Shown: positions 2,172 to 64,000 of the stretch, piece by piece
Position numbering within the stretch: the first letter of the stretch is position 1
Layout: each line of letters opens with the position of its first letter
Origin: Alphaproteobacteria bacterium
Lineage (GTDB): Bacteria; Pseudomonadota; Alphaproteobacteria; Sphingomonadales; Emcibacteraceae
Direction of reading: 5' to 3'
Assembly: GCA_020446675.1 (NCBI GenBank)
Contig: JAGREE010000005.1
Location: 154,637-218,636, forward strand
Length of the DNA: 64,000 bases
Position numbers and translations under genes: made by a program
Notes under the pieces: generated by a model
The model's database searches: none
What the model saw: the letters and a program-made list of their open reading frames with translations, nothing else
What the model was told of the DNA's origin: nothing

Positions 2172-2905
2172 ACAAAAATATTATCGTCACCATTTTTAAA
2201 TTTTCGGAAATCGGCAATTTTGCCGTTTTCATTAAAATCAGGGGAACAAAGCTTCACCATCAGAGGCATAAGGGCTTCCGGCTTATCAACAAGATTTGGA
2301 TCTTCGCCCGGCATTGCCCGAGCGCGCATTGCTGTTCTGATCGGGCCGGGGTTTAAAATATTTACCCGCAAATTGGATTTTTCAATTTCTGCAGCATAAG
2401 TTCTGACCATGCACTCAAGGGCTGCTTTGCTGATGGCGTACCCGCCCCAGAAAGGGCGGGGCTCCCTTACCAATGTAGAAGAGCCGACAAATACGGCACG
2501 ACCATGGTCGGCGGCCCTTAGCAGCGGGTCAAGTGATCTGATTAGTCGGTAATTTGCAGTCACATTGACATCCATCACCTGTTGCCAGACTTTCGGCTTT
2601 AAATGGCTTATCGGCGTAATATCGCCAAGGGTCCCTGCGTTACCAACCAGAATATCAAGTTTTCCGTATTTTTTGGCAATAATGCCACCCATTCTGTCCA
2701 GTGCGTCATAATCTGTAATGTCAAGCGGCACCAACGTTGTTTCACCACCCAACTTTATGATGTCATCATCAAGGGCTTCAAGGGATCCAACAGTGCGGGC
2801 AATAGCAAATATATGCGCACCTTCCTTGGCGAGTGCTTTTGCTGTGGCATATCCGATCCCGCGTGACGCCCCGGTCACGACGGCAATTTTATTTTTTAAT
2901 ATCAT
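2168..2905 (-). CDS. SDR family NAD(P)-dependent oxidoreductase
   Basis: A 245-residue classical short-chain dehydrogenase/reductase. It carries the cofactor motif TGASRGIG near residue 12, NAG near residue 90, a catalytic Ser in VGSS, and YAISK with catalytic Tyr and Lys. The substrate is not evident. Its ATG overlaps the purF stop by four bases (ATGA), so it is translationally coupled to purF and is the last gene of the dnaB-to-purF chain. An SDR directly after purF is a recurrent alphaproteobacterial arrangement, but I know of no proven role in purine synthesis. The C-terminus (NGDDNIFV) is short and acidic. Confidence 0.9.
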   Translation of the reverse strand: MILKNKIAVVTGASRGIGYATAKALAKEGAHIFAIARTVGSLEALDDDIIKLGGETTLVPLDITDYDALDRMGGIIAKKYGKLDILVGNAGTLGDITPISHLKPKVWQQVMDVNVTANYRLIRSLDPLLRAADHGRAVFVGSSTLVREPRPFWGGYAISKAALECMVRTYAAEIEKSNLRVNILNPGPIRTAMRARAMPGEDPNLVDKPEALMPLMVKLCSPDFNENGKIADFRKFKNGDDNIFV

Positions 2906-4404
2906 TTTTTGTAATCCGTCAGCAGCGAGAATTGTTTGTCATCATCTGAAGCGTTGTTATCGGTTAGTGGTGTTGGATATTCACCGCTGAAACAGGCATC
3001 ACAATATTGCGGCTTTTTATTATCTCTATTTGCTTCACCGACTGCCCGGTAAAGTCCATCTATAGAAATGAATTTCAGGCTGTCGGCACCGATATATTCG
3101 GCCATTTCCTTAATTGACATTCTGGACGCCAGCAATTTATCTTTATCCGGCGTATCAACACCGTAAAAACAAGGATCCGTTGTTGGTGGGCTGGCAATGT
3201 AAAGATGGACTTCTTTTGCCCCTGCCTGCCTGACCATATCAACGATTTTGACCGATGTGGTGCCACGCACGATACTGTCATCGACAAGAACGACAATTTT
3301 TCCGTCCAGCTCACCCCGGTTTGCGTTATGTTTCAATTTTACGCCAAGATGGCGGATGGTATCAGATGGTTCAATGAAAGTGCGTCCGACATAATGGTTT
3401 CGAATAATGCCCAGTTCAAATGGAATGCCTGCTTCCTGTGCATAACCGATAGCGGCTGGCACACCACTATCAGGAACTGGTACCACAAGGTCTGCATTCA
3501 GTTTGCATTCTTTTGCCAGTTCCTTACCGATATTTTTTCGGACTTTATAAATACTGGTACCGTTGCTGAGGCTATCGGGCCTTGAAAAATAAACATGTTC
3601 AAAAATACAGGGGCGAGGGTGCATGATCGGGAATGGTTTAATGCTTGTCATGCCATTTTTATTAATAGTAATCACTTCACCCGGATCAACATCACGAATA
3701 AAATCAGCACCGATTATATCCAGAGCGCAGGTTTCCGAAGCAAAAATATAGCCGTCATTAGGCAATTTACCAAGTACAAGCGGGCGTACACCAAGCGGGT
3801 CACGTGCGCCGATCAGACAATCTTCGCTTAGGGCAACAAAAGCAAATGCGCCTTCAATCCGGCGCATTGCATCAATGAATTTATCCTGTAGAGTTAAATA
3901 TGTACTCGTGGCAATCAAGTGTATGATCACTTCAGAATCGGACGTCGACTGAAAAATAGCTCCTTTGGCGACCAGATGTTTTTTAAGGGTCAAGGCATTG
4001 GTCAAGTTACCGTTATGAGCGACGGCAAAACCGCCACTGGCAAGATCGGCAAAAAGCGGCTGAATATTTCTTAGACCTGAACCGCCAGCCGTAGAATAGC
4101 GGACATGGCCGATGGCACTATTTCCTGGAAGCGACTCAATCACTGATTTTGTGTTAAAATTATCAGCAACATGACCGGTTGATTTATGGGCGTAAAACTG
4201 CCCTTCATAATAGCTTACAATTCCGGCTGCTTCCTGACCGCGGTGCTGAAGTGCGTGAAGCCCGAGCACAGTATGAGTTGACGCCTCCGGCGTATTAAAA
4301 ACACCAAAAACACCACATTCATCATGGAATTTATCATCTTCTGTAAATGGAGTCGTGGTAAGGGTCGAGGGCGAAAAATTAGAGGAATTTATATGATCCG
4401 TCAT
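2902..4404 (-). CDS. purF: Amidophosphoribosyltransferase PurF
   Basis: Catalyses the first step of purine synthesis, PRPP plus glutamine to phosphoribosylamine. The 500-residue protein has an N-terminal glutamine amidotransferase domain whose nucleophile is Cys30 (DECGVFGVF), implying removal of a 29-residue propeptide. The phosphoribosyltransferase PRPP loop lies around residues 372-384 (VLVDDSIVRGTTS). Cys266, Cys412, Cys468 and Cys471 sit where the Bacillus-type enzyme holds its 4Fe-4S cluster, so this looks like the oxygen-sensitive iron-sulfur type rather than the cluster-free E. coli type. It lies between cvpA and the SDR gene, overlapping the latter by four bases. Confidence 0.97.
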   Translation of the reverse strand: MTDHINSSNFSPSTLTTTPFTEDDKFHDECGVFGVFNTPEASTHTVLGLHALQHRGQEAAGIVSYYEGQFYAHKSTGHVADNFNTKSVIESLPGNSAIGHVRYSTAGGSGLRNIQPLFADLASGGFAVAHNGNLTNALTLKKHLVAKGAIFQSTSDSEVIIHLIATSTYLTLQDKFIDAMRRIEGAFAFVALSEDCLIGARDPLGVRPLVLGKLPNDGYIFASETCALDIIGADFIRDVDPGEVITINKNGMTSIKPFPIMHPRPCIFEHVYFSRPDSLSNGTSIYKVRKNIGKELAKECKLNADLVVPVPDSGVPAAIGYAQEAGIPFELGIIRNHYVGRTFIEPSDTIRHLGVKLKHNANRGELDGKIVVLVDDSIVRGTTSVKIVDMVRQAGAKEVHLYIASPPTTDPCFYGVDTPDKDKLLASRMSIKEMAEYIGADSLKFISIDGLYRAVGEANRDNKKPQYCDACFSGEYPTPLTDNNASDDDKQFSLLTDYKK

Positions 4405-4473
4405 TAATCCAACTCATTAGGGGTCTATATGCACTTCTATATATTGTGGTTTGGCTTTTTTGTGAACCTTTTT

Positions 4474-5115
4474 TTACGATTTTGTCCCTTCACGGATCAG
4501 ATTATCCATTTCTTCTCTGGATTTATCGTCATATTGGGTTTCACTGTCCTTTTTTTTATCACTGGATGGGAAGGATGGGGCCACATTTTTTAAAATACCG
4601 AACCATTCCGTGCCAAAGCGACCTTCTTCAAATAATGGTTCATCTTTGTAAGGATTCATGGAATTAAGCATGCTTGCCCCATATTCGATCAATGGTCTTG
4701 ATTTCGCTTCCATGAACATGTCGGGATATTCATCTGCTGAAAAAAATGGCGTGGTCAGCAGATAAGCAAAACTGATAAGCAGCATGCCGCGCGCCATACC
4801 AAACAGGATACCTAGGCCCCGGTCCAAAGCGCCGATATGGCTTTCTTTAATGGTTCTGCCGATAACCCCGCCAATATACTTAAATATAATCAGGCTGAGT
4901 ATGCCCAGAACCGCATAGGTAATCATACTGGCCATAAAATCCGGCTGAACTAAATTTACAATATGGGGATAAAGAATCGGGTGACCCTGAAGGGTAACGA
5001 AAAGAGCCAATACCCATGCGACCAGACTAAGGGCTTCTGTTGTGAAACCCCTGGTAATTGCAATTAAAACGGACGCGCCGATAATCAGCAGGACTATAAT
5101 ATCAATTGCGTTAAT
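4474..5115 (-). CDS. cvpA: CvpA family membrane protein, probable ATT start
   Basis: An inner-membrane protein of the CvpA (colicin V production) family, placed as usual between radA and purF. The frame encodes four hydrophobic segments, then a hydrophilic tail rich in Lys, Asp and Glu. The family N-terminus NAIDIIVLLIIGASVLIAIT is present only if translation starts upstream of the first ordinary start codon, a TTG at 5010 that would remove the first segment. In frame, the only candidate is ATT at 5115-5113, seven bases after GGAAGGA; a stop lies at 5136. The ATT start gives 213 residues, a normal family length. The exact function of CvpA is unresolved; it is linked to envelope homeostasis. 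Confidence 0.85.
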   Translation of the reverse strand: MNAIDIIVLLIIGASVLIAITRGFTTEALSLVAWVLALFVTLQGHPILYPHIVNLVQPDFMASMITYAVLGILSLIIFKYIGGVIGRTIKESHIGALDRGLGILFGMARGMLLISFAYLLTTPFFSADEYPDMFMEAKSRPLIEYGASMLNSMNPYKDEPLFEEGRFGTEWFGILKNVAPSFPSSDKKKDSETQYDDKSREEMDNLIREGTKS

Positions 5116-5141
5116 GGCTTTATCCTTCCATAATTAAAACA

Positions 5142-6512
5142 TTATTCCAGATTTGGGGCAATAATATCAACAAGTTTTATCAGTTGATTGAGTTCTGCCG
5201 TTTTCATTTTTGCATTTTTATATTTCATTTTTGACGGAATAAAGGCCTGTGTAAAGCCAAGCTTTTCAGCTTCCTTGAGGCGGGCATCGGCCTGTCCGAC
5301 GGGCCTTATTTCACCGGATAAGGCAATTTCCCCGAAAATAATGGTTTCCCCGGTAATAGGGTCCCCGGAAAGGGAGGAAATCAGTGCTGCCGCGACGGCA
5401 AGATCAGCAGCTGGTTCAGATATTTTAAGCCCACCGGCAACATTAAGATAAATATCATAAGCCCCCAGACCAAGACCGCAGCGTGCATCAAGCACGGCAA
5501 TGACCATGGCAAGGCGGGCACTGTCCCAGCCGACGACGGCGCGGCGCGGCGTGCCGAGCGAAGATGGCGCGACCAAAGCCTGAATTTCAACCAGCATTGG
5601 CCTTGACCCTTCCATTCCGGCGAATACGGCAGAGCCAACGACATCACCATCACGGTCGCCCAGGAACAGGGCAGACGGGTTGGGAACCTCTTTTAGTCCA
5701 AGGTCTGACATTTCAAAAACGCCGATTTCATCGGTACCGCCGAAACGGTTTTTTACGGCCCGGAGGATGCGAAACTGATGCCCGCGGTCTCCTTCAAAAT
5801 AAAGGACGGTATCGACCATATGTTCAAGCACACGGGGACCGGCGATCTGGCCATCCTTGGTGACATGGCCGACCAAAAGGACACATACATTTCTTTTCTT
5901 GGCAAAACGGATCAGTTCCTGTGCGCTGGTTCTGACCTGGGCGACGGTGCCGGGGGCGCTTTCTATGGTGTCGGCATACATGGTCTGTATACTGTCAATA
6001 ACCACCACATCGGGGCATTTTCCCTTGCTTAAAGTGGCGAGGATATCCCGCAGATTGGTTTCAGAGGCAAGTGAAACAGGGCTATCTGCCAGATCAAGCC
6101 TTTCAGCGCGCATACGGACCTGAGCGACCGATTCTTCCCCTGAAATATAAACTGTGCTGATCCCGTTACGGGCCAGATTGCTGACTGCCTGTAAAAGCAG
6201 TGTTGATTTTCCAATCCCGGGATCGCCACCAATTAATATAGCAGAGCCAGGAACCAGTCCGCCACCAGTGACCCGGTCAAATTCACCGATTTTTGACCCC
6301 ATTCTTGGAAGCGGTTCATCTTCACCCTTTAGTGATGAAAGCTCAATAATTGCGCCCTTGGCCGAAGCCGATTTTCCAAGGCCAGTTGGCATATTTTCTG
6401 ATGCTTCCTCGGTCAGGCTGTTCCATTCGCCGCACGCTTCACACTGGCCCATCCACTTGCCGTATGTGGTACCGCAACTGTTACAGACATATATGCGTTT
6501 CTGCTTTGCCAT
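5142..6512 (-). CDS. radA: DNA repair protein RadA
   Basis: A RecA-like ATPase that promotes branch migration during recombination. The 456 residues show the complete architecture: a CXXC-X10-CXXC zinc finger (Cys10, 13, 24, 27), a Walker A motif GGDPGIGKS near residue 95, the RadA-specific KNRFG motif near residue 257, and a C-terminal Lon-protease-like domain that lacks proteolytic function in the family. The ATG shares its first base with the mlaF stop (TAATG), and cvpA starts 26 bases after its stop. It is part of the long minus-strand chain. Confidence 0.97.
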   Translation of the reverse strand: MAKQKRIYVCNSCGTTYGKWMGQCEACGEWNSLTEEASENMPTGLGKSASAKGAIIELSSLKGEDEPLPRMGSKIGEFDRVTGGGLVPGSAILIGGDPGIGKSTLLLQAVSNLARNGISTVYISGEESVAQVRMRAERLDLADSPVSLASETNLRDILATLSKGKCPDVVVIDSIQTMYADTIESAPGTVAQVRTSAQELIRFAKKRNVCVLLVGHVTKDGQIAGPRVLEHMVDTVLYFEGDRGHQFRILRAVKNRFGGTDEIGVFEMSDLGLKEVPNPSALFLGDRDGDVVGSAVFAGMEGSRPMLVEIQALVAPSSLGTPRRAVVGWDSARLAMVIAVLDARCGLGLGAYDIYLNVAGGLKISEPAADLAVAAALISSLSGDPITGETIIFGEIALSGEIRPVGQADARLKEAEKLGFTQAFIPSKMKYKNAKMKTAELNQLIKLVDIIAPNLE

Positions 6513-7291
6513 TATCCTTTAAGGATTTCCATTTTAATAGGACCCTCGGCCTTGCCGTTAATAAACTGATCAATATAGTCACTGCCACTTTGGTCAATTT
6601 TATTTTTAGGTCCGGTCCAGATGATATTGCCGTGATAAATCATCGCCACATTATCCGCAATTTTTCGTACACTCGACATGTCATGGGTGATGGTGACGGC
6701 GGTTGCCCCCACATCTTTAACACATTCGACAATCAGTTCATTGATTACATCAGACATAATCGGGTCTAGCCCAGTGGTCGGTTCATCAAAAAAGATAATT
6801 TCGGGATTGGCGGCAATGGCGCGGGCAAGCCCCACGCGCTTCTGCATTCCTCCGGAAAGCTCCGCCGGACTTAGGGTTCCGACATCTGGACTTAGGCCGA
6901 CACGGCGCAATTTCTCAATGGCAATTTCCTTGGCATCGGCACGGTTATAAAGCCTTTGTGCGAGCAGTCCAAAGGCGACATTCTCCCAAACGGGAAGACT
7001 GTCGAAAAGGGCACCCCCCTGAAAGAGCATGCCAAATTTGCTCAGGATTTCCTTGCGGTCAGAATTTGAAATACCGATCATTTCCTGTCCATCAATTTTG
7101 ATGCTGCCTCCATCAGCGGTCAGCAGGCCAAGAATACATTTAAGTGTTACGGATTTGCCGGAACCGGAACCGCCAATAATCACCATACTTTCACTTGGCA
7201 TGACTTCAAGGTCAATACTGTCAAGAACAACTTTGCTGCCGAATGTTTTACGTAGGCCTTTCAGGCTTATTTTTGGAACAATATTTGTCAT
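6512..7291 (-). CDS. mlaF: MlaF-type ABC transporter ATP-binding protein
   Basis: ATPase of a lipid transporter of the Mla/Ttg2 family, which moves phospholipids between inner and outer membranes. The 259 residues contain Walker A GGSGSGKS (40-47), the signature LSGGMQKR and Walker B IIFFDEPTTGLDP. It overlaps mlaE by four bases (ATGA) and radA by one, implying translational coupling. The gene for the MCE substrate-binding subunit (MlaD) is not adjacent, nor are MlaB or MlaC genes; they must lie elsewhere or be absent. Family assignment is firm; the Mla label rests on pairing with an MlaE permease. Confidence 0.9.
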   Translation of the reverse strand: MTNIVPKISLKGLRKTFGSKVVLDSIDLEVMPSESMVIIGGSGSGKSVTLKCILGLLTADGGSIKIDGQEMIGISNSDRKEILSKFGMLFQGGALFDSLPVWENVAFGLLAQRLYNRADAKEIAIEKLRRVGLSPDVGTLSPAELSGGMQKRVGLARAIAANPEIIFFDEPTTGLDPIMSDVINELIVECVKDVGATAVTITHDMSSVRKIADNVAMIYHGNIIWTGPKNKIDQSGSDYIDQFINGKAEGPIKMEILKG

Positions 7292-8064
7292 GACGAATAG
7301 AACAACTCCGTTACAACATAGTTTGAAAGCAGGATCATAATGCAGGCGGATACAACAGCATTCGTGGTTGAAATACCAACACCCTGTGCGCCGCCACGGG
7401 TGTTAAAGCCATGATAACAGCCCATCAGCGCGATGAAGAACCCAAATACGGTGGCTTTGGTCAAAGAGGCCATAACGTCAATGGTTTCCAGAAAATCAAT
7501 GGTTGATTTCATATAATTTCCACTGTTAAAGCCAAGCTTGCTTGTGGCAAGAAGATAACCACCAAGAACACCGATGGTATCAGCAACCACCACCAACATC
7601 AGCGGCATCATGATCAGAGTTGCCAGAATGCGCGGAGCAATAAGATATTTAAAAGGATCCGTTGAAAGTGTTACAAGAGCGTCAATCTGTTCAGTAACCC
7701 GCATGGTGCCAAGCTCCGCTGCCATAGAGGCACTGACCCGTCCGGCAACAATGAGCCCGCAAAGGGTGGGCCCCAGTTCGCGGACGATACCGATGACGAC
7801 AATAGTTGGCAATGTGCTTTCCGCGTTAAAGCGTGAGCTTCCCTCATAAATATTAACGGCAAGGGCCGCACCGGTAAATAATGTCGTAAGGCCGACAACA
7901 GGCAGTGAATAATAGCCGATATTAATCATCTGTCTGAAAAGTTCACGCGGATAATAAGGTGGGGTTAACATATGGGCGATTGCACTGACAGCAAATAGGC
8001 CAATCCTTCCGGCAGCCCGTAAAAAAGAGATAGCAACCCGCCCGATAACGGCCAAAAAATTCAT
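7288..8064 (-). CDS. mlaE: MlaE-type lipid ABC transporter permease
   Basis: A 258-residue permease of the MlaE/TrnA family, partner of the ATPase encoded immediately downstream. It has an N-terminal amphipathic segment followed by five to six hydrophobic segments. The family signature around VRELGPTLCGLIVAGRVSAS (near residue 95) is present, followed by the conserved AELGTMRVTEQIDAL loop that contacts the ATPase. It is coupled to alr upstream by a TAATG overlap and to mlaF downstream by ATGA. Position between alr and radA suggests it is co-transcribed with cell-wall and DNA-repair genes rather than with other Mla components. Confidence 0.92.
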   Translation of the reverse strand: MNFLAVIGRVAISFLRAAGRIGLFAVSAIAHMLTPPYYPRELFRQMINIGYYSLPVVGLTTLFTGAALAVNIYEGSSRFNAESTLPTIVVIGIVRELGPTLCGLIVAGRVSASMAAELGTMRVTEQIDALVTLSTDPFKYLIAPRILATLIMMPLMLVVVADTIGVLGGYLLATSKLGFNSGNYMKSTIDFLETIDVMASLTKATVFGFFIALMGCYHGFNTRGGAQGVGISTTNAVVSACIMILLSNYVVTELFYSS

Positions 8065-12315: not shown

Positions 12316-12963
12316 TTATTCGGCTTTTTCTTCCTCTGCGTCATCTGCTGTTTCAGCCTCTTCAGCAGGAGCTGCTTCTACTTCAGCGTCCTCTTCACCA
12401 GTATCTGCGACAACGGCTTCAGCATCTTCTTCTTTTTCGAAGTAATCTTCTACTGCAAATTCTTCTTCATTAAGATCAGCAGAAACATCACCGCCAACCG
12501 CCTGAATTTCAGCTTCAGCAGCTGAACGGGCAACATTTACAGTAACATTTATTTCTACTTCCGCATGAAGACGAAGGGCAATATCATATAAACCGAGAGT
12601 TTTAAGAGCACGGTTAAGAATTACCTGACTTTTATCAACTTTATAACCGGCTTCTTCAAGTTCGACAGCAATGTCACGCGCTGAAACGGACCCAAAAAGC
12701 TGCCCGCTTTCACCAGCCTGACGGATAAGAACAACAGAAACTTTATCCATTTTTGCGGCAATTGCTTCTGCTTCCGATTTTGCTTTAAGATTATTGGCTT
12801 CGATTTCTTTGCGCTGTGTTTCAAAATGAGCAATATTGGCTTTGGTCGCACGAAGAGCTTTCCTTTGTGGTAAAAGAAAGTTGCGGGCATAGCCGTTTTT
12901 CACTTTTACTACGTCACCGATTTGACCAAGATTAGTTACGCGCTCAAGTAGGATAATATCCAT
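12316..12963 (-). CDS. rplI: Large-subunit ribosomal protein bL9, with acidic tail
   Basis: bL9 binds 23S rRNA at the base of the L1 stalk. Residues 1-150 show the normal two-domain protein ([19 protein letters not shown] at the start, a long central helix, and a C-terminal domain with [12 protein letters not shown]). Beyond about residue 165 the protein carries a tail of about 50 residues made almost only of Glu, Asp and Ala, giving 215 residues against about 150 in E. coli. Acidic extensions on bL9 occur in other Alphaproteobacteria. It closes the rpsF-rpsR-rplI operon and is followed by a strong terminator. Confidence 0.96.
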
Positions 12964-12974
12964 GATGATTCTCC

Positions 12975-13232
12975 TTATTGATTTACGTATGAAATAAGAG
13001 CCAGGTTACGGGCGCGTTTAATGGCTTTAGCCAGTTCGCGTTGCTTTTTGGCTGATACGGCAGTAATGCGGCTTGGTACTATTTTTCCACGCTCGGAAAT
13101 ATAACGTGTAAGCAGACGCACATCTTTATAGTCAATTTTCTGGGCGTGTGAACCTGAAAATGGGCAGGTTTTACGACGACGGAAAAAAGGACGGCGTGCG
13201 CCACCTTGTGATGATTGGCGATCAGTACTCAT
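12975..13232 (-). CDS. rpsR: Small-subunit ribosomal protein bS18
   Basis: An 85-residue bS18 that pairs with bS6 on the platform of the 30S subunit. A Gln/Arg-rich N-terminus is followed by the conserved RRKTCPFSG segment, then [19 protein letters not shown] and a KRARNLALI helix. Length and sequence are typical. Its ATG shares one base with the rpsF stop, and rplI starts 11 bases after its stop, so the three are one transcription unit. Confidence 0.97.
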
Positions 13233-15628: not shown

Positions 15629-15678
15629 CAATGTTTAACTCAGGCTTTAATGAAAGTCTTTAATTTAAGGAATATGAA

Positions 15679-19905: not shown

Positions 19906-19957
19906 TTCATGACTTCCTGCTATACATTTAAAACCAAAAACAACAATACAGTGCAAA

Positions 19958-20845
19958 ATGACAATATCAAGCATGACTGGATTTGGCCGCGCAGAAGGCC
20001 ATTTTGAAAATTACAGCTGGGTCTGGGAAATCAGAAGCGTAAATGGCAAGGGTATTGATATCCGCTATCGCATTCCGCCCGGGCTTGATGATCTGGATCA
20101 GTATATCAAATCAACGCTAAAAAATGCACTTTCCCGTGGCAGCCTTAATATTTCATTGCAATTGCAAAAAGATGTTACCAACCCGGACGTAAGAGTAAAT
20201 GAAGAGGCACTGGACAAACTTGTCACTGTTGCCAAGGCTGCCGCAAAAAAACATGATCTGGCCCTGCCGTCGATCGATCGGCTTTTATCAATCCGTGATA
20301 TTGTTGAAATTACAGATCTGGAAGAGGATGAAGACTTGCTTGCTGAACGGGATGAGCAGCTCAAGAAGACATTTATTTTAGCCTTGGACGGGCTCAAAAC
20401 ATCACGCCTGCATGAAGGGGAGGCAACATTTAAAATGCTGTCAGCAACCCTTGATGAAATGGAAGTTTTGCTCGGAAAAGCAATCGACATTGCCGCCACC
20501 CAACCTGCGGCTCTAAAGGAAAGACTTGATGAAAAAGTCAGTGCATTATTAGAGAATAATCACGGCATTGATCCTGACAGGCTTGCCCAGGAAATTGTCC
20601 TGCTGGTCACAAAAGCCGATGTAAAAGAGGAAACGGATCGATTAAACGCTCATATAGAAAACGCAAGAAAACTCTTAAAGGAGCAGGGGGCTGTTGGTCG
20701 AAAGCTTGAGTTTTTATCACAGGAATTTAATAGAGAAACCAATACGTTATGCTCTAAATCCTCAGATATAGCTTTAACAAATATTGGACTATCTTTAAAA
20801 GCAGCAATAGACCAATTCAGGGAACAGGTGCTCAATGTTGAATAA
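19958..20845 (+). CDS. yicC: YicC/YloC family endoribonuclease
   Basis: A 295-residue member of the YicC family, now regarded as endoribonucleases with a role in small-RNA decay in E. coli. The N-terminus MTISSMTGFGRAEG is diagnostic, and the C-terminal part has the conserved EFLSQEFNRETNTLCSKSSD segment. Its stop lies inside the gmk start region (11-base overlap), so the two are translationally coupled. yicC-gmk is a widespread pair. Confidence 0.94.
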   Translation: MTISSMTGFGRAEGHFENYSWVWEIRSVNGKGIDIRYRIPPGLDDLDQYIKSTLKNALSRGSLNISLQLQKDVTNPDVRVNEEALDKLVTVAKAAAKKHDLALPSIDRLLSIRDIVEITDLEEDEDLLAERDEQLKKTFILALDGLKTSRLHEGEATFKMLSATLDEMEVLLGKAIDIAATQPAALKERLDEKVSALLENNHGIDPDRLAQEIVLLVTKADVKEETDRLNAHIENARKLLKEQGAVGRKLEFLSQEFNRETNTLCSKSSDIALTNIGLSLKAAIDQFREQVLNVE

Positions 20846-30060: not shown

Positions 30061-30825
30061 ATGAATAAAATTGGTTCCTATATATTTATTATGATAAATG
30101 CTTTTTGGGCAGCCAATTCATTTGCTAATGGCAATTTATCCGACAATATCAGGATAAACAGTGAGGTTCTGGGATATACCCTGCAATACCGTGTTTATAC
30201 ACCAGAAAAAATGAACAAACTAAGTGATTTGCCATCAATTTATGTTACTGACGGTAATGGCTATATTACCGAGGGACGGATGGTTGAAGTTATGGATAAG
30301 CTCATCAGTGATGGAAAAATGAAGCCAGTTATCGCTATTTTTGTCGATAGCCGGAATCCTGATAATCTGGATGAAAACAGAAGAAATTATCAGCTTTTGT
30401 GTAATGAGCATTATGCTCAGTTTTTTGTTTCTGAGCTTATTAAAGAAATTGAAAGTAATTACCCGGTTAGCAAGAACAGAAATAATCGTATCATTCAGGG
30501 CGTTTCCTTTGGTGGATTAAATGCCGCTTGCTTTGGTCTGATGGCGTATAATTATTTTGGGGGTATTTCAATGCATTCTCCTGCAAACAGCAATTTTCTA
30601 AGTGAACTAAAATCGGATTATGAAAATATAGAACGTTTGCCACTTAAAATGTTTCTAAGTTTTGGAAATGAACAGGATAACAGGCGAGCAGGGAGGCAGT
30701 TTAAGAATGTACTCGTTAAAAAAAACTATGATCTGACTTATAAAGAAGTCAGGGAAGGGCATAATTGGCGAAACTGGCGTCCACTTATTGATGATGCACT
30801 TCTCACTTTTTTTTCTAACGATTAA
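30061..30825 (+). CDS. Exported esterase (esterase D/enterochelin esterase-like)
   Basis: A 254-residue alpha/beta hydrolase of the Fes/esterase D-like family (putative esterase domain). A signal peptide covers about residues 1-23 (cut after FANG), so it acts in the periplasm or outside. The nucleophile is Ser149 in QGVSFGG; His234 in EGHNWRNW is the catalytic base, and Asp206 is a candidate acid. The family includes siderophore and carbohydrate esterases, but no siderophore genes are nearby and the substrate is unknown. GAGGG precedes the ATG. It overlaps the convergent ABC-F gene by 11 bases. Confidence 0.88.
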   Translation: MNKIGSYIFIMINAFWAANSFANGNLSDNIRINSEVLGYTLQYRVYTPEKMNKLSDLPSIYVTDGNGYITEGRMVEVMDKLISDGKMKPVIAIFVDSRNPDNLDENRRNYQLLCNEHYAQFFVSELIKEIESNYPVSKNRNNRIIQGVSFGGLNAACFGLMAYNYFGGISMHSPANSNFLSELKSDYENIERLPLKMFLSFGNEQDNRRAGRQFKNVLVKKNYDLTYKEVREGHNWRNWRPLIDDALLTFFSND

Positions 30826-32683
30826 GCATTTCTTCCAGTTCAATCCACTTTTCTTCTGCTTCTTTCAATTTGTGGTCAAGGTCACTTTTTTCCCGTGTGA
30901 ACTGTTTTAAAGCTCTTCCGGCTGCAGGATCTTTTTTATTATAAAGCTTAGGATTGCTCAGGGCTTTATTATATTTTTCAATTTCCCGGTTCAGATAATC
31001 GACCCGTCTTTCCGCTTCGGCAATTTGATCTTTAAGTGCGCGCACATCTATTTGTGGCTCATTCTTTTTGGTCTTTTTCTTAACTGCAGGTTTTGGGGGA
31101 TCTTTTTTAACCACACCTGTTTTTTTACCGATTACAAGATTTTTATAATCGTTGATATCACCATCAAAATCGTTAACACCGCCATTCTCAACTACCATGA
31201 TACGATCAGCGCAAGCCTCTACGAGATAGCTATCATGGCTGATGATGATTACAGCGCCTTCATAGTCGTTTATTGCATGAATAAGCGATTGGCGGCTATC
31301 CATATCCAGATGGTTGGTCGGTTCGTCAAGAATGATCATTTGTGGTGCATTAAAGCTCATCAAAGCAAATAAAAGACGCGCTTTTTCACCGCCGGACATG
31401 GTGGAAATCTTGTTTGTTGCCTTATCAACACCAAAACCGAAACCGCCCAGTCGGGCCCGTACCTGCGTTTCCGTTGATCCTTTCATCAGGCGGGCCAGAT
31501 GGGAAAGGGGGGTGCCGTTCGGGTCAAGCTCATCCTGCTGATGCTGGGCAAAATAGCCAATACCAAGCTTGCGTGAGCGGTTTATAGTGCCTTCCATCGG
31601 CTTCAGTCTGTCGGAAAGCAGTTTGGCAAAAGTTGATTTGCCGTTACCATTCTGACCGAGTAGGGCAATACGGTCTTCCATATCTATCCTTAAGGATAAG
31701 TTTCTTAAGATTGGTTTACCCGTCTCATAACCCACGGACAGATTTTCCATAGATATCAGGGGTGGTGCCAGTTCAACAGGATTTGGAAAATTAAACTGAA
31801 CCGTATGTTCTTCAGCGAGCGCGGCAAGCGGTTCCATTCGTTCCAGCATTTTTATGCGGCTTTGGGCCTGTTTGGCTTTGCTGGCTTTATAACGGAAGCG
31901 GTCAATATATTTCTGGATATGTGCGCGTTCGAGTTCCTGTTTCTTTAGGGCCGCACGTTGAAGTTCACGTTGTTCACGATAGGTTTTTTCAAACTTGTCA
32001 AAATTTCCGCCATAATAGGTCAGACCACATGCTTCCAGATGGACAATCGCATTTGCCGAACTGTTCAGAAGGTCACGGTCGTGGCTGATGATCAAAACGG
32101 TGTAGGGATAGCTTTTAATAAAATTCTCGAGCCATAAAACCCCTTCCAGATCAAGATAGTTTGTCGGCTCGTCAAGCAGCAGAAGGTCAGGCTGTGTAAA
32201 AAGAGTGCAGGCAAGGGCCACACGCATACGCCAGCCCCCTGAAAATTCACTGCAGGGGCGCCGCTGTTCGGCATCGTTAAAGCCAAGTCCGGACAATATA
32301 CTGGCCGCCCGGGCTTCGGCTTCATAGGCGCCAATATCCTGCAATCTTTCATGAATTTCGGCAATGCGGTGGGGATCTTTACAGTTTTCTGCCTCATGAT
32401 GAAGTTCCACAAGTTCCGGATGTGCGGCGAGCACCGTATCAAGCAGGGTTTCCGGGCCGCCGGGGGCTTCCTGTGCGACCTGGCCGACGGATGCAGACTT
32501 TCTGATATTAATCTGTCCGTCATCGGCTTCCAGTTCGCCGAGGATCAATTTATAAAGCGTGGTCTTTCCCGCACCGTTTTTTCCAACGATGCCGACTTTA
32601 TGCCCGGCAGGAACGGTAACACTGGCTTTTTCCAGTAACAGTTTCCCGGCTATGCGATATGTGAGGTCAGTAATATGTAACAT
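30815..32683 (-). CDS. ABC-F family ribosome-associated ATPase (YheS/Uup-like)
   Basis: A 622-residue ABC-F protein with two ATPase domains and no membrane segment. Domain 1 has [10 protein letters not shown] and [11 protein letters not shown], domain 2 has GQNGNGKST and [11 protein letters not shown]; between them lies a basic P-site tRNA-interacting linker rich in Lys, Arg and Gln. A C-terminal coiled coil (about residues 545-620) follows. ABC-F proteins act on the ribosome to relieve stalling or, in some cases, confer antibiotic resistance; the layout resembles the housekeeping YheS/Uup groups. It is divergent to ndk. Confidence 0.92.
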
Positions 32684-32731
32684 GCATGGGGTTTTATCAG
32701 GTAAACGGAAAATATCAATGGCAAATAAATA

Positions 32732-32760
32732 TTGAAGTTTTACAAAATAACCACTATAAG
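32732..32760 (+). promoter_or_regulatory. Candidate ndk promoter
   Basis: TTGAAG at 32732-32737 and TATAAG at 32755-32760 with a 17-base spacer, 42 bases before the ndk ATG. Both hexamers are good sigma70 matches. Confidence 0.6.
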
Positions 32761-32802
32761 GCGCGCCAACAGATTAAAATTCAAATACCAAGGATAAAAA
32801 TT

Positions 32803-40760: not shown

Positions 40761-41921
40761 TTATATCTGTTCCTTAATGGAAAATAGTATAATTTCACCA
40801 TTTTTTATCGCGAAGGCTTTTTTCCCGTTTTTAAGTGCAATGGCATCTTTACCGAAAATATCGAACCGCCAGCCATGTAAGGCTTTAACATCGGCCTTGT
40901 CCTCTTCGGCTATTTTTTCAAGGTCTTCCACATTGGCAATCAGTTTCGGGGCAACATCTTCACGTTTACAGACAAGCTTAAGAAGGACTTTTAAAAGCTC
41001 AACAATTGGGTCGGTATTCTGTGAAGGGGGCGGCTTTCTCGAAATCTTTGGTAACTGATCCTCTGGCAGGTCCATGGCTTCCTGAATGGCGGCAATAACA
41101 GTGTCTCCACCTTTACTGGACGCAAAATTGGCCCCAAGGCCACGAATGCTGGACAAGGCGTTTTTGTGTGTTGGACGCACGGCACATAGTTCAAGCAGCA
41201 CCTCATCACGCATAACACGGTTTCTTGGTATATTTCGCCGTTGTGCTTCTGCTTCACGCCAGGAGGCCACATTCTGGACGATGGCATTGAACCGTCGGTT
41301 GCTGTTTCGGATCTTTATCCTTTTCCAGGCATTCTCCGGCTTAATGACGTAACTTTCCTTATCCAGCAATTCGTCAAGCTCTTCAGCGAGCCAGACTTCA
41401 CGCCCATTTTTTTCGATTTTTAATTTTAAGTGCTTATAAATCTCCCTTAAATGGGTGACATCCCCCAACGCATAGTCGATTTGCCGTTCGGTAAGGGGGC
41501 GGCGGGACCAGTCAGTGAACCGGGTGCTTTTATCAAGAGGTTTATTGCAGATTGACATGACCAGTTTTTCATAACCGATACTATCGCCATACCCGCAGAC
41601 CATGGCGGCAACCTGGCTGTCAAAAAGGGGCTTTGGTACGACATTAGCCATATTGACAAAAATTTCTATATCCTGCCTTGCGGCATGGAAAACTTTCATG
41701 ACATCCTCATTTTCCATCAGGTCATAAAATGGGGCAAGGTCCAGCCCTGTGGCCAATGTATCAATTGCATGAAATTCATTGTCATCAGCAATCTGGATCA
41801 GGCATAATTTCGAATAATAAGTTTTATCTCTCAGAAATTCAGTATCAACCGTTACATAGTCGGATTTTGCAAGACGCTGACACAGTGCTTCCAAATCCTG
41901 GTTTGTTGTTATTACACTCAT
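40761..41921 (-). CDS. rnd: Ribonuclease D
   Basis: 3'-5' exoribonuclease that trims tRNA precursors. The 386 residues carry the DEDDy exonuclease domain: DTEF (Exo I) near residue 21, a central HAARQD segment (Exo II) and YALGDVTHL (Exo III, with Tyr). An HRDC region follows (RRFNAIVQNVASWREAEA) with a second helical domain at the C-terminus. It converges with ppx, two bases apart, and diverges from aspS. Confidence 0.95.
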   Translation of the reverse strand: MSVITTNQDLEALCQRLAKSDYVTVDTEFLRDKTYYSKLCLIQIADDNEFHAIDTLATGLDLAPFYDLMENEDVMKVFHAARQDIEIFVNMANVVPKPLFDSQVAAMVCGYGDSIGYEKLVMSICNKPLDKSTRFTDWSRRPLTERQIDYALGDVTHLREIYKHLKLKIEKNGREVWLAEELDELLDKESYVIKPENAWKRIKIRNSNRRFNAIVQNVASWREAEAQRRNIPRNRVMRDEVLLELCAVRPTHKNALSSIRGLGANFASSKGGDTVIAAIQEAMDLPEDQLPKISRKPPPSQNTDPIVELLKVLLKLVCKREDVAPKLIANVEDLEKIAEEDKADVKALHGWRFDIFGKDAIALKNGKKAFAIKNGEIILFSIKEQI

Positions 41922-41959
41922 AAAGTCCCTTAATTCTTTGGTTCAGACTCAAGATTAAC

Positions 41960-41965
41960 TTGACA
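41960..41965 (+). promoter_or_regulatory. Consensus -35 hexamer upstream of aspS
   Basis: A perfect TTGACA 66 bases before the aspS ATG. The hexamer 17 bases further on is poor (AAAAAG), so the promoter is only suggested. Confidence 0.3.
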
Positions 41966-42025
41966 AAGCGACAATAAAGCACAAAAAGACACTGAATTGA
42001 ACTTGAATATTTAAAAAATAGAAGA

Positions 42026-43834
42026 ATGGATATGCACGAATACAGATCTCATACTTGTAATGAACTAAGAAGCGATGATGTGGGCCAGATCGCACGTCTT
42101 TCCGGATGGGTACACCGCAAGCGGGACCATGGCGGACTGTTGTTTATTGATTTAAGAGATCATTATGGAATCACCCAGTGTGTTTTCGACAGTGATTTTA
42201 AGGATATTTTTGAAGTTGCTGAGAATGTGCGTGCCGAAAGTGTTATCCGTGTTGAAGGCCAGGTGATCAAACGTGACGCAGAGGTGATAAACCCTGAACT
42301 GCCCACCGGTGAAATAGAAATTCTGGTTAAAAAAGTTGATGTGCTTAATGCTGCTGCCGAGCTTCCTTTACCCGTTTTCGGAGAACAGGAATATCCAGAA
42401 GATATCAGACTTAAATATCGTTTCCTTGATCTGAGACGCGAAAGAATTCATAAAAATATAGTGCTGCGTTCAGATATTATCTCAAGCATTCGTCGCAGAA
42501 TGGTTGATCAGGGCTTCAAAGAGTTCCAGACACCAATTCTGACCGCATCATCACCGGAAGGGGCCAGGGACTTTCTGGTGCCATCACGACTGCACCCAGG
42601 TAAATTCTATGCATTGCCGCAGGCTCCCCAGCAATTTAAACAGCTTCTTATGATTGCGGGTTTTGACCGCTATTTTCAGATTGCGCCTTGTTTTCGCGAT
42701 GAGGATGCACGTGCTGACCGCAGCCCTGGTGAATTTTATCAGCTTGATATGGAAATGTCCTATGTAACCCAGGATGATGTATTCGCAGCGATTGAGCCGG
42801 TTATGCAGGGCGTATTTGAGGAATTTTCAGATAAAAAAGTAACACAGGCACCATTCCCGCGCATTTCATATAAAGAGGCGATGTTAAAATACGGCTCTGA
42901 TAAACCGGACCTGAGAAATCCGATCGTGATTTCCGATGTCACGGAAGTGTTTGACGGTTCTGGCTTTGGAATTTTTGCCGGTGCCATTAAAAACGGTGCT
43001 GTTGTTCGTGCTGTGCCAGCACCGGGGGCGGGTGCCGAGCAGCCAAGATCATTTTTTGATAAAATGAACGACTGGGCCCGCTCAGAAGGGTTCGCAGGAC
43101 TAGGCTATGTCCGCTTTAAGGATGGTGAGGCTATGGGCCCGATCGCCAAAAACCTGGATGAAGAGCGGATCGCCAAACTTATGGACATTGCGGGACTTAC
43201 TGAAAATGACGGTGTTTTCTTTGCCTGCGCCAAAGCGGATGAGGCCGCCAAACTTGCCGGGCATGCCAGAACAAAGGTCGGCAATGAACTTGGCCTGATC
43301 AAGGATGATGAATTTAAATTCTGCTGGATTGTTGATTTCCCGATGTATGAATATGATGAAATCGAAAAGAAACTTGATTTCAGCCATAATCCGTTCTCTA
43401 TGCCGCAGGGTGGCTTGGAAGCTCTCAATAGCCAAAATCCTGAAGATATTCTTGGCTATCAGTATGACATTGTCTGTAACGGTATTGAATTATCATCCGG
43501 GGCAATCAGAAACCACGTGCCCGAAATCATGTACCGCGCCTTTGAAATTGCCGGTTACGGCCCGGAAGTTGTCGAGCAGCGTTTTGCCGGGATGCTAAAC
43601 GCCCTTAAATACGGCGCGCCTCCCCATGGTGGAATAGCGCCTGGTGTTGACCGTATTGTTATGCTTCTGGCGGACGAGCCGAATATTCGTGAAGTGATCG
43701 TTTTCCCGATGAACCAGAAGGCCGAAGATCTGATGATGAATGCGCCGAGTGAAGTGGAAATGAAGCAGTTAAGAGAACTTCATCTGCGGACTGTTCTGCC
43801 CGAGGTTAAGGAAGTCACAAAAAAGGAAATTTAA
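42026..43834 (+). CDS. aspS: Aspartyl-tRNA synthetase
   Basis: Class II synthetase charging tRNA-Asp. The 602-residue bacterial-type enzyme has the OB-fold anticodon domain (residues 1-110, [21 protein letters not shown] is its core), motif 1, motif 2 around [20 protein letters not shown], the bacterial insertion (GAD) domain, and motif 3 ([14 protein letters not shown]). ATGs at 42026 and 42032 are both possible. Whether it also charges tRNA-Asn cannot be told from the sequence alone. A terminator follows 20 bases after the stop. Confidence 0.96.

Positions 43835-63284: not shown

Positions 63285-64000
<716 letters not shown>

Follow-up and report, generated by a model that had tools for sequence, protein, structure and literature searches.

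On the minus strand of the window, by which we mean the whole stretch of 64,000 nucleotides analysed here, the genes radA, cvpA and purF follow one another in this order, as assigned by NCBIfam and Pfam profiles (Table 1). The window is located in contig 140 of genome G000, an assembly of 3.16 Mb in 170 contigs. The cvpA product matches the Pfam profile PF02674 (Colicin_V) with residues 4-144 covering positions 1-140 of the 144 in the profile (E-value 2.9e-29, 102.4 bits, cut-off 29.3), a score above the family cut-off across the domain, by which it belongs to the CvpA / Colicin_V family. Against NF008100, the NCBIfam equivalog for the colicin V production protein, it scores 57.4 bits, which is below the cut-off of 264; CvpA is a family relative and not that equivalog. 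The cvpA frame is a real, intact gene, and its ATT lies 26 nt from the radA stop. Elsewhere in the window, the plus strand encodes at 952-2158 a tandem of three small proteins that resemble each other (124-128 aa); they are glyoxalase/VOC-like as judged by eye and are each matched in four genomes of the genus.

Table 1. Genes and sequence features around cvpA, in positions of the window
Feature	Position	Strand	Remarks
cvpA (Colicin_V / CvpA family membrane protein)	4474..5115	-	213 codons from ATT, then stop TAA; Pfam PF02674
cvpA stop TAA	4476-4474	-	sequence
ATT, codon 1 of cvpA (proposed start)	5113..5115	-	ATT/ATC kept among genus loci
Shine-Dalgarno GGAAGGA	5123..5129	-	ends 7 nt before ATT 5115-5113
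In-frame stop TAA barring upstream starts	5134..5136	-	sequence
radA, upstream gene	5142..6512	-	NCBIfam TIGR00416, 579.5 bits, cut-off 403.05
purF, downstream gene	2902..4404	-	NCBIfam TIGR01134, 501.5 bits, cut-off 350
Promoter-like TTCACA-N17-TATATA between cvpA stop and purF	4438..4466	-	consensus match only

The start region of cvpA in the window

According to the initial annotation, the conserved N-terminus of CvpA is encoded upstream of any ATG, GTG or TTG codon (further called NTG), behind an in-frame stop and a Shine-Dalgarno sequence that precedes an ATT. Direct reading of the minus strand bears this out: the first in-frame NTG of cvpA is the TTG at 5010, which is codon 36, a TAA is present at 5136-5134, and GGAAGGA is separated from ATT by the seven bases TAAAGCC. 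A single detail had to be corrected, in that six codons (TTA TGG AAG GAT AAA GCC), and not nine, separate this TAA from ATT. From ATT on, the frame continues with AAC GCA ATT GAT ATT ATA GTC CTG CTG. An ATG at 5142-5140 on the same strand overlaps the radA stop (TAATG) and is in frame with cvpA; it cannot start the gene because TAA 5136 follows one further codon (TTT).

The Shine-Dalgarno sequence of the window forms a six-pair duplex of -6.1 kcal/mol, and the duplexes of the 12 cvpA loci of the genus range from -5.5 to -6.1 kcal/mol. Compared to the ATG-started frames of at least 200 aa in the window (36 of 38, with start calls that are mechanical), a duplex of -6.1 kcal/mol or stronger is found in five of the 36, with a median of -3.9 kcal/mol; among the 18 ATG frames whose duplex reaches at least -4 kcal/mol in strength, a spacing of 7 nt is the most frequent one (five frames). 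When the start regions of the 12 genus genomes were folded, no structure shared by all of them was recognised by eye.

Conservation of the first codon in genus, family and order

Homologs of cvpA were found in 143 of the 147 genomes searched, own genome included (genomes are numbered G and loci L). The genus, which belongs to the Alphaproteobacteria, is represented by 13 genomes together with that of the window, 12 of which have a cvpA match, each locus being counted once; G007 is the sole genus genome in which no cvpA match was found. The other 11 CvpA proteins of the genus are 66-80% identical to the one of the window. Aligning the cvpA starts of relatives had been proposed as a check, and it gave ATT as codon 1 in 11 of the 12 loci, ATC in one (G002) and ATG, which had been named as evidence against an ATT start, in none. 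An AAGGA core is present in all 12 loci; its distance to codon 1 is 8 nt in G004 and 7 nt in the 11 others. The gap between radA and cvpA measures 16, 25, 26, 27, 29 or 37 nt and thereby occurs in all three phases; that the spacing between AAGGA and codon 1 is kept although this gap varies counts for the ATT/ATC codon as the start.

In 10 of the 12 genus loci, no NTG lies between codon 1 and the stop that precedes it. Outside the genus, 18 other family loci with a match were compared together with 40 of the 113 order genomes with a match, and in all 58 (18/18 family, 40/40 order) an NTG is present at or upstream of codon 1, at 0 to 12 codons upstream of the cvpA codon 1 position. In six rows of the family (L028, L029, L031, L035, L036 and L038), the codon alignment has slipped and codon 1 is shown three codons too far downstream, by which neither the frame nor the presence of the upstream ATG is affected. 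L076 and L079, both from the order set, have a single NTG, an ATG exactly at the codon 1 position, so that a start there is no novelty as such.

In 10 of the 12 genus loci, codons 2-9 encode N A I D I I V L; the deviations are one Val at codon 4 and one Ala at codon 7. Synonymous differences occur at seven of these eight codons, with Ala3 and Val8 each encoded by four codons, indicating that this segment is constrained as protein and that translation begins at or before it. The in-frame codons upstream of codon 1 are kept only over the Shine-Dalgarno sequence (-4 to -2), and there are stops among them. No usable NTG, a conserved codon and a normally spaced Shine-Dalgarno sequence, the features looked for in a conserved near-cognate start, are thus all found at cvpA, and ATT as the genus-wide start codon of cvpA is strongly supported by this comparison of sequences.

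Further non-NTG starts were surveyed in 65 non-overlapping frames of the window for which stretches of five genus genomes contained a homolog, distances being compared by eye. In many rows similarity begins a few residues before the first NTG; for cvpA, each of the five relatives shows similarity from 39-41 residues ahead of the first NTG in the window. As further candidates, the frame at 3-923 was rejected since it is cut by the window edge, those at 6512-7402, 19913-20845, 12316-13005 and 30815-32773 since each overlaps a neighbour, and that at 15664 since an ordinary ATG is present. At 63423-63968 on the minus strand, similarity to G002 (42%) starts 25 residues before the first NTG and that to two other relatives starts later, and at 41845-42048 similarity begins 14 residues before the first NTG in one relative. 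In G010, 85 non-overlapping frames whose homolog is at least 50% identical were surveyed, and 12 were flagged. Of these, four overlap a neighbour; in seven, similarity extends 6-10 residues upstream (in one relative for six frames, and in three relatives for 235015, which corresponds to window 40761-41942); and in cvpA it extends 15 residues upstream in three relatives. Frame 235015 was discarded because, at the nucleotide level, its upstream similarity is a Shine-Dalgarno region and no conserved protein start. Among the 65 window and 85 G010 frames, which cover a small part of the genome, cvpA is the clearest gene that is conserved past all NTG starts in several relatives and does not overlap a neighbour.

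Proposed origin of the start and mode of initiation, and competing explanations

The 12 CvpA sequences of the genus group as a single clade (support 100/100) in a tree that also contained six outgroup rows, and the ATC species G002 is nested inside this clade. In the other genera of the family, an ATG or TTG is situated some codons upstream (e.g. ATG GAT GGC CTG TCG ATC AAT in L022) and the homologous codon encodes Ile, Val, Leu or Phe; in L039 the homologous codon is itself TTG, so that this locus could start there. As the 18 other family loci have a canonical upstream start and a short extension, the start in the genus seems to have shifted to an internal Ile codon. The simplest history would be that the short extension was lost once and initiation passed to this codon.

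The comparison of the loci shows which codon is used, that it is conserved, that alternatives are lacking and that a Shine-Dalgarno sequence precedes it; from this we infer the following path. The AAGGA Shine-Dalgarno sequence 7 nt upstream would place the ribosome on the AUU of cvpA, which the fMet initiator tRNA (anticodon CAU) would read with a third-base mismatch. Because of this mismatch, initiation is proposed to be slow and to be discriminated against by IF3, by which the level of CvpA would be low and would rise if IF3 is scarce; an AUU start is accordingly predicted to lower the CvpA yield and to make it IF3-sensitive. The AUU start would have arisen once, at the base of the genus, when the extension was lost together with its start, the Shine-Dalgarno sequence now setting the ribosome on a formerly internal Ile codon. 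Taken as a whole, we regard this as the best explanation and as very probably correct.

An ATT start might also be real and carry no regulatory meaning, as a weak start that is tolerated because little CvpA is needed and that is kept by descent. This explanation shares its start codon with the one proposed above, the two not being exclusive, and its chance of being true comes fairly close to even without reaching it. It is in line with the confinement of the ATT/ATC start to one clade of species that share ancestry, and with ATT being the commonest Ile codon in the cvpA set of the genus (130 of 278, codon 1 left out). Moreover, purF possesses a promoter-like sequence of its own, TTCACA-N17-TATA being found after the cvpA stop in 11 of the 12 genus loci and in 4 of the 18 other family loci, so weak translation of cvpA need not starve purF. 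Conversely, ATG is one substitution away from ATT and ATC, yet it is absent from 12 species between which CvpA has diverged as mentioned above (66-80% identity of the 11 others to that of the window), and the ATT:ATC ratio of 11:1 at codon 1 differs from that at the two other all-Ile codons among the first 60, which split 7:3:2 and 7:5. The retained Shine-Dalgarno sequence also argues for a start site that is maintained rather than decaying. That selection has put cvpA under IF3 control, with AUU/AUC being kept and CvpA being low and rising together with infC (AUA) when IF3 is short, is a tentative possibility to which we give a somewhat smaller chance, and what is left falls to selection keeping expression low with no IF3 signal involved, or to a wrong start.

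The remaining explanations place the start elsewhere. G001 and G012 contain an in-frame GTG 8 codons upstream, within the last codons of radA, and the two together also show a TTG at the radA end. The resulting 8-residue extension, of a length similar to those in other family genera, could be ancestral and still be used in these two genomes. We consider this improbable, as such a start is impossible in the other 10 genus genomes, as no Shine-Dalgarno sequence is evident before the GTG and the AAGGA-ATT pair is intact in both, and as G001 and G012 are not grouped together in the CvpA tree.

Translation might also begin at an internal NTG, which in the window is the TTG at 5010 and gives the longest NTG-started frame, of 178 aa, in a mechanical ORF list. 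A start at this TTG would cost the protein 35 residues, among them the first hydrophobic stretch and the beginning of the Pfam match, and leave the protein constraint on codons 2-9 unaccounted for. Initiation at TTG 5010 was the other outcome held to speak against ATT, and it does not agree with the relatives: the codon varies, and the first in-frame NTG is codon 8, 10, 12, 16, 32, 36, 40, 47 or 61 depending on the genome, G005 having none before codon 61. An internal start is therefore very improbable.

Even less credit is given to a frameshift or read-through feeding cvpA from radA, which ends closely upstream, or from the three-codon ATG frame ATGGAAGGATAA, which overlaps the Shine-Dalgarno sequence in the window; the radA gap occurs in all three phases, in-frame stops intervene, and ATGGAAGGATAA does not recur in the 11 further loci of the genus. 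A sequencing or assembly error hiding an ATG, conceivable in an assembly of 170 contigs, is excluded for practical purposes by ATT or ATC at the same codon in the assemblies of 11 other species, including the single-contig G012.

Near-cognate starts in infC and other genes, and possible meaning of the cvpA start

The gene infC starts at AUU, AUC or AUA and is autoregulated by IF3. In the genus, an ATA shortly after GGAGAAA is present in all 11 infC loci fetched (G006 was matched and lies outside these 11; G003 gave no match), and an ATG five codons after the ATA is also available in all 11. Within the loci compared (L080-L109), two of other family members, L106 and L108, lack the downstream ATG found in most of the rest, and this supports ATA as the actual start of infC. 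Genus cvpA resembles infC in its near-cognate AUH start, its good Shine-Dalgarno sequence and its conservation across relatives, with ATA being seen in the same genus. Unlike cvpA, infC encodes the discriminator itself, which makes a feedback loop; we know of no role of CvpA in initiation. E. coli pcnB, a gene with no relation to initiation, reportedly has an AUU start that limits its translation (Binns and Masters, 2002, by title); pcnB encodes a different protein in a different lineage, and its start was tested by experiment.

A deviating initiator tRNA does not explain the cvpA start. An initiator-type anticodon arm AGG-CTCATAA-CCT, with A:U as its first pair, was found in all nine order genomes searched, in G000 as L180 (G000:C102:886-907), and is thus not special to the genus. 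ARAGORN called a tRNA-Met(CAT) in seven of the nine loci with the A:U arm, G000 included, and none in L181 and L184. The usual anticodon arm with three G-C pairs was found in none of seven genomes, and a pattern search for the initiator tRNA in G000 gave 10 matches, about as many as the control and none with CAT.

According to PMC5472188, non-NTG starts are well supported for few bacterial genes, the standard case being infC of E. coli and, with ATC, of Streptomyces. The same paper describes Streptomyces sigR, of which the GTC start is repressed by IF3. Like cvpA, sigR has a non-canonical start that is kept throughout one genus, together with an extensive ribosome site and a downstream gene with its own promoter; it differs in having GTC and not ATT and in being a sigma-factor switch, and IF3 control has been demonstrated for sigR, whereas for cvpA it is a proposal. 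In Staphylococcus, cvfC1 (of S. aureus) starts at AUU and ccpN at AUA, and in S. aureus grown in poor medium, such conserved AUU and AUA starts yield about 10% of what an AUG reporter gives (PMC13009471). These genes share with genus cvpA conserved AUU/AUA starts with a strong Shine-Dalgarno sequence, which is extended in the staphylococci and six-pair in cvpA, and the staphylococcal starts were demonstrated by profiling and reporters (PMC13009471). In vitro, when a CAU anticodon reads AUU, full-length peptide makes up a smaller share as IF3 is raised (PMC10158994). By analogy to infC, pcnB and sigR, IF3 discrimination may act as a control of cvpA, the AUU most likely being read with lower efficiency as in infC, sigR and S. 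aureus cvfC1. A non-canonical start of cvpA was not reported in the literature that our search covered, with most subscription journals outside this coverage.

The AUU start of cvpA appears comparatively well supported as a genus-wide trait, with ATT or ATC in every genus member where the gene was found and a likely evolutionary origin. Gene finders limited to NTG would truncate or miss cvpA. Next to infC in the same genomes, it offers a testable second gene for IF3-dependent initiation. The conserved ATT suggests that the cell keeps CvpA production low, or ties this production to the factor that polices start codons. If the latter is true, the genus would possess a small set of IF3-gated genes beyond IF3 itself, acquired by way of a start moved to an internal Ile codon.
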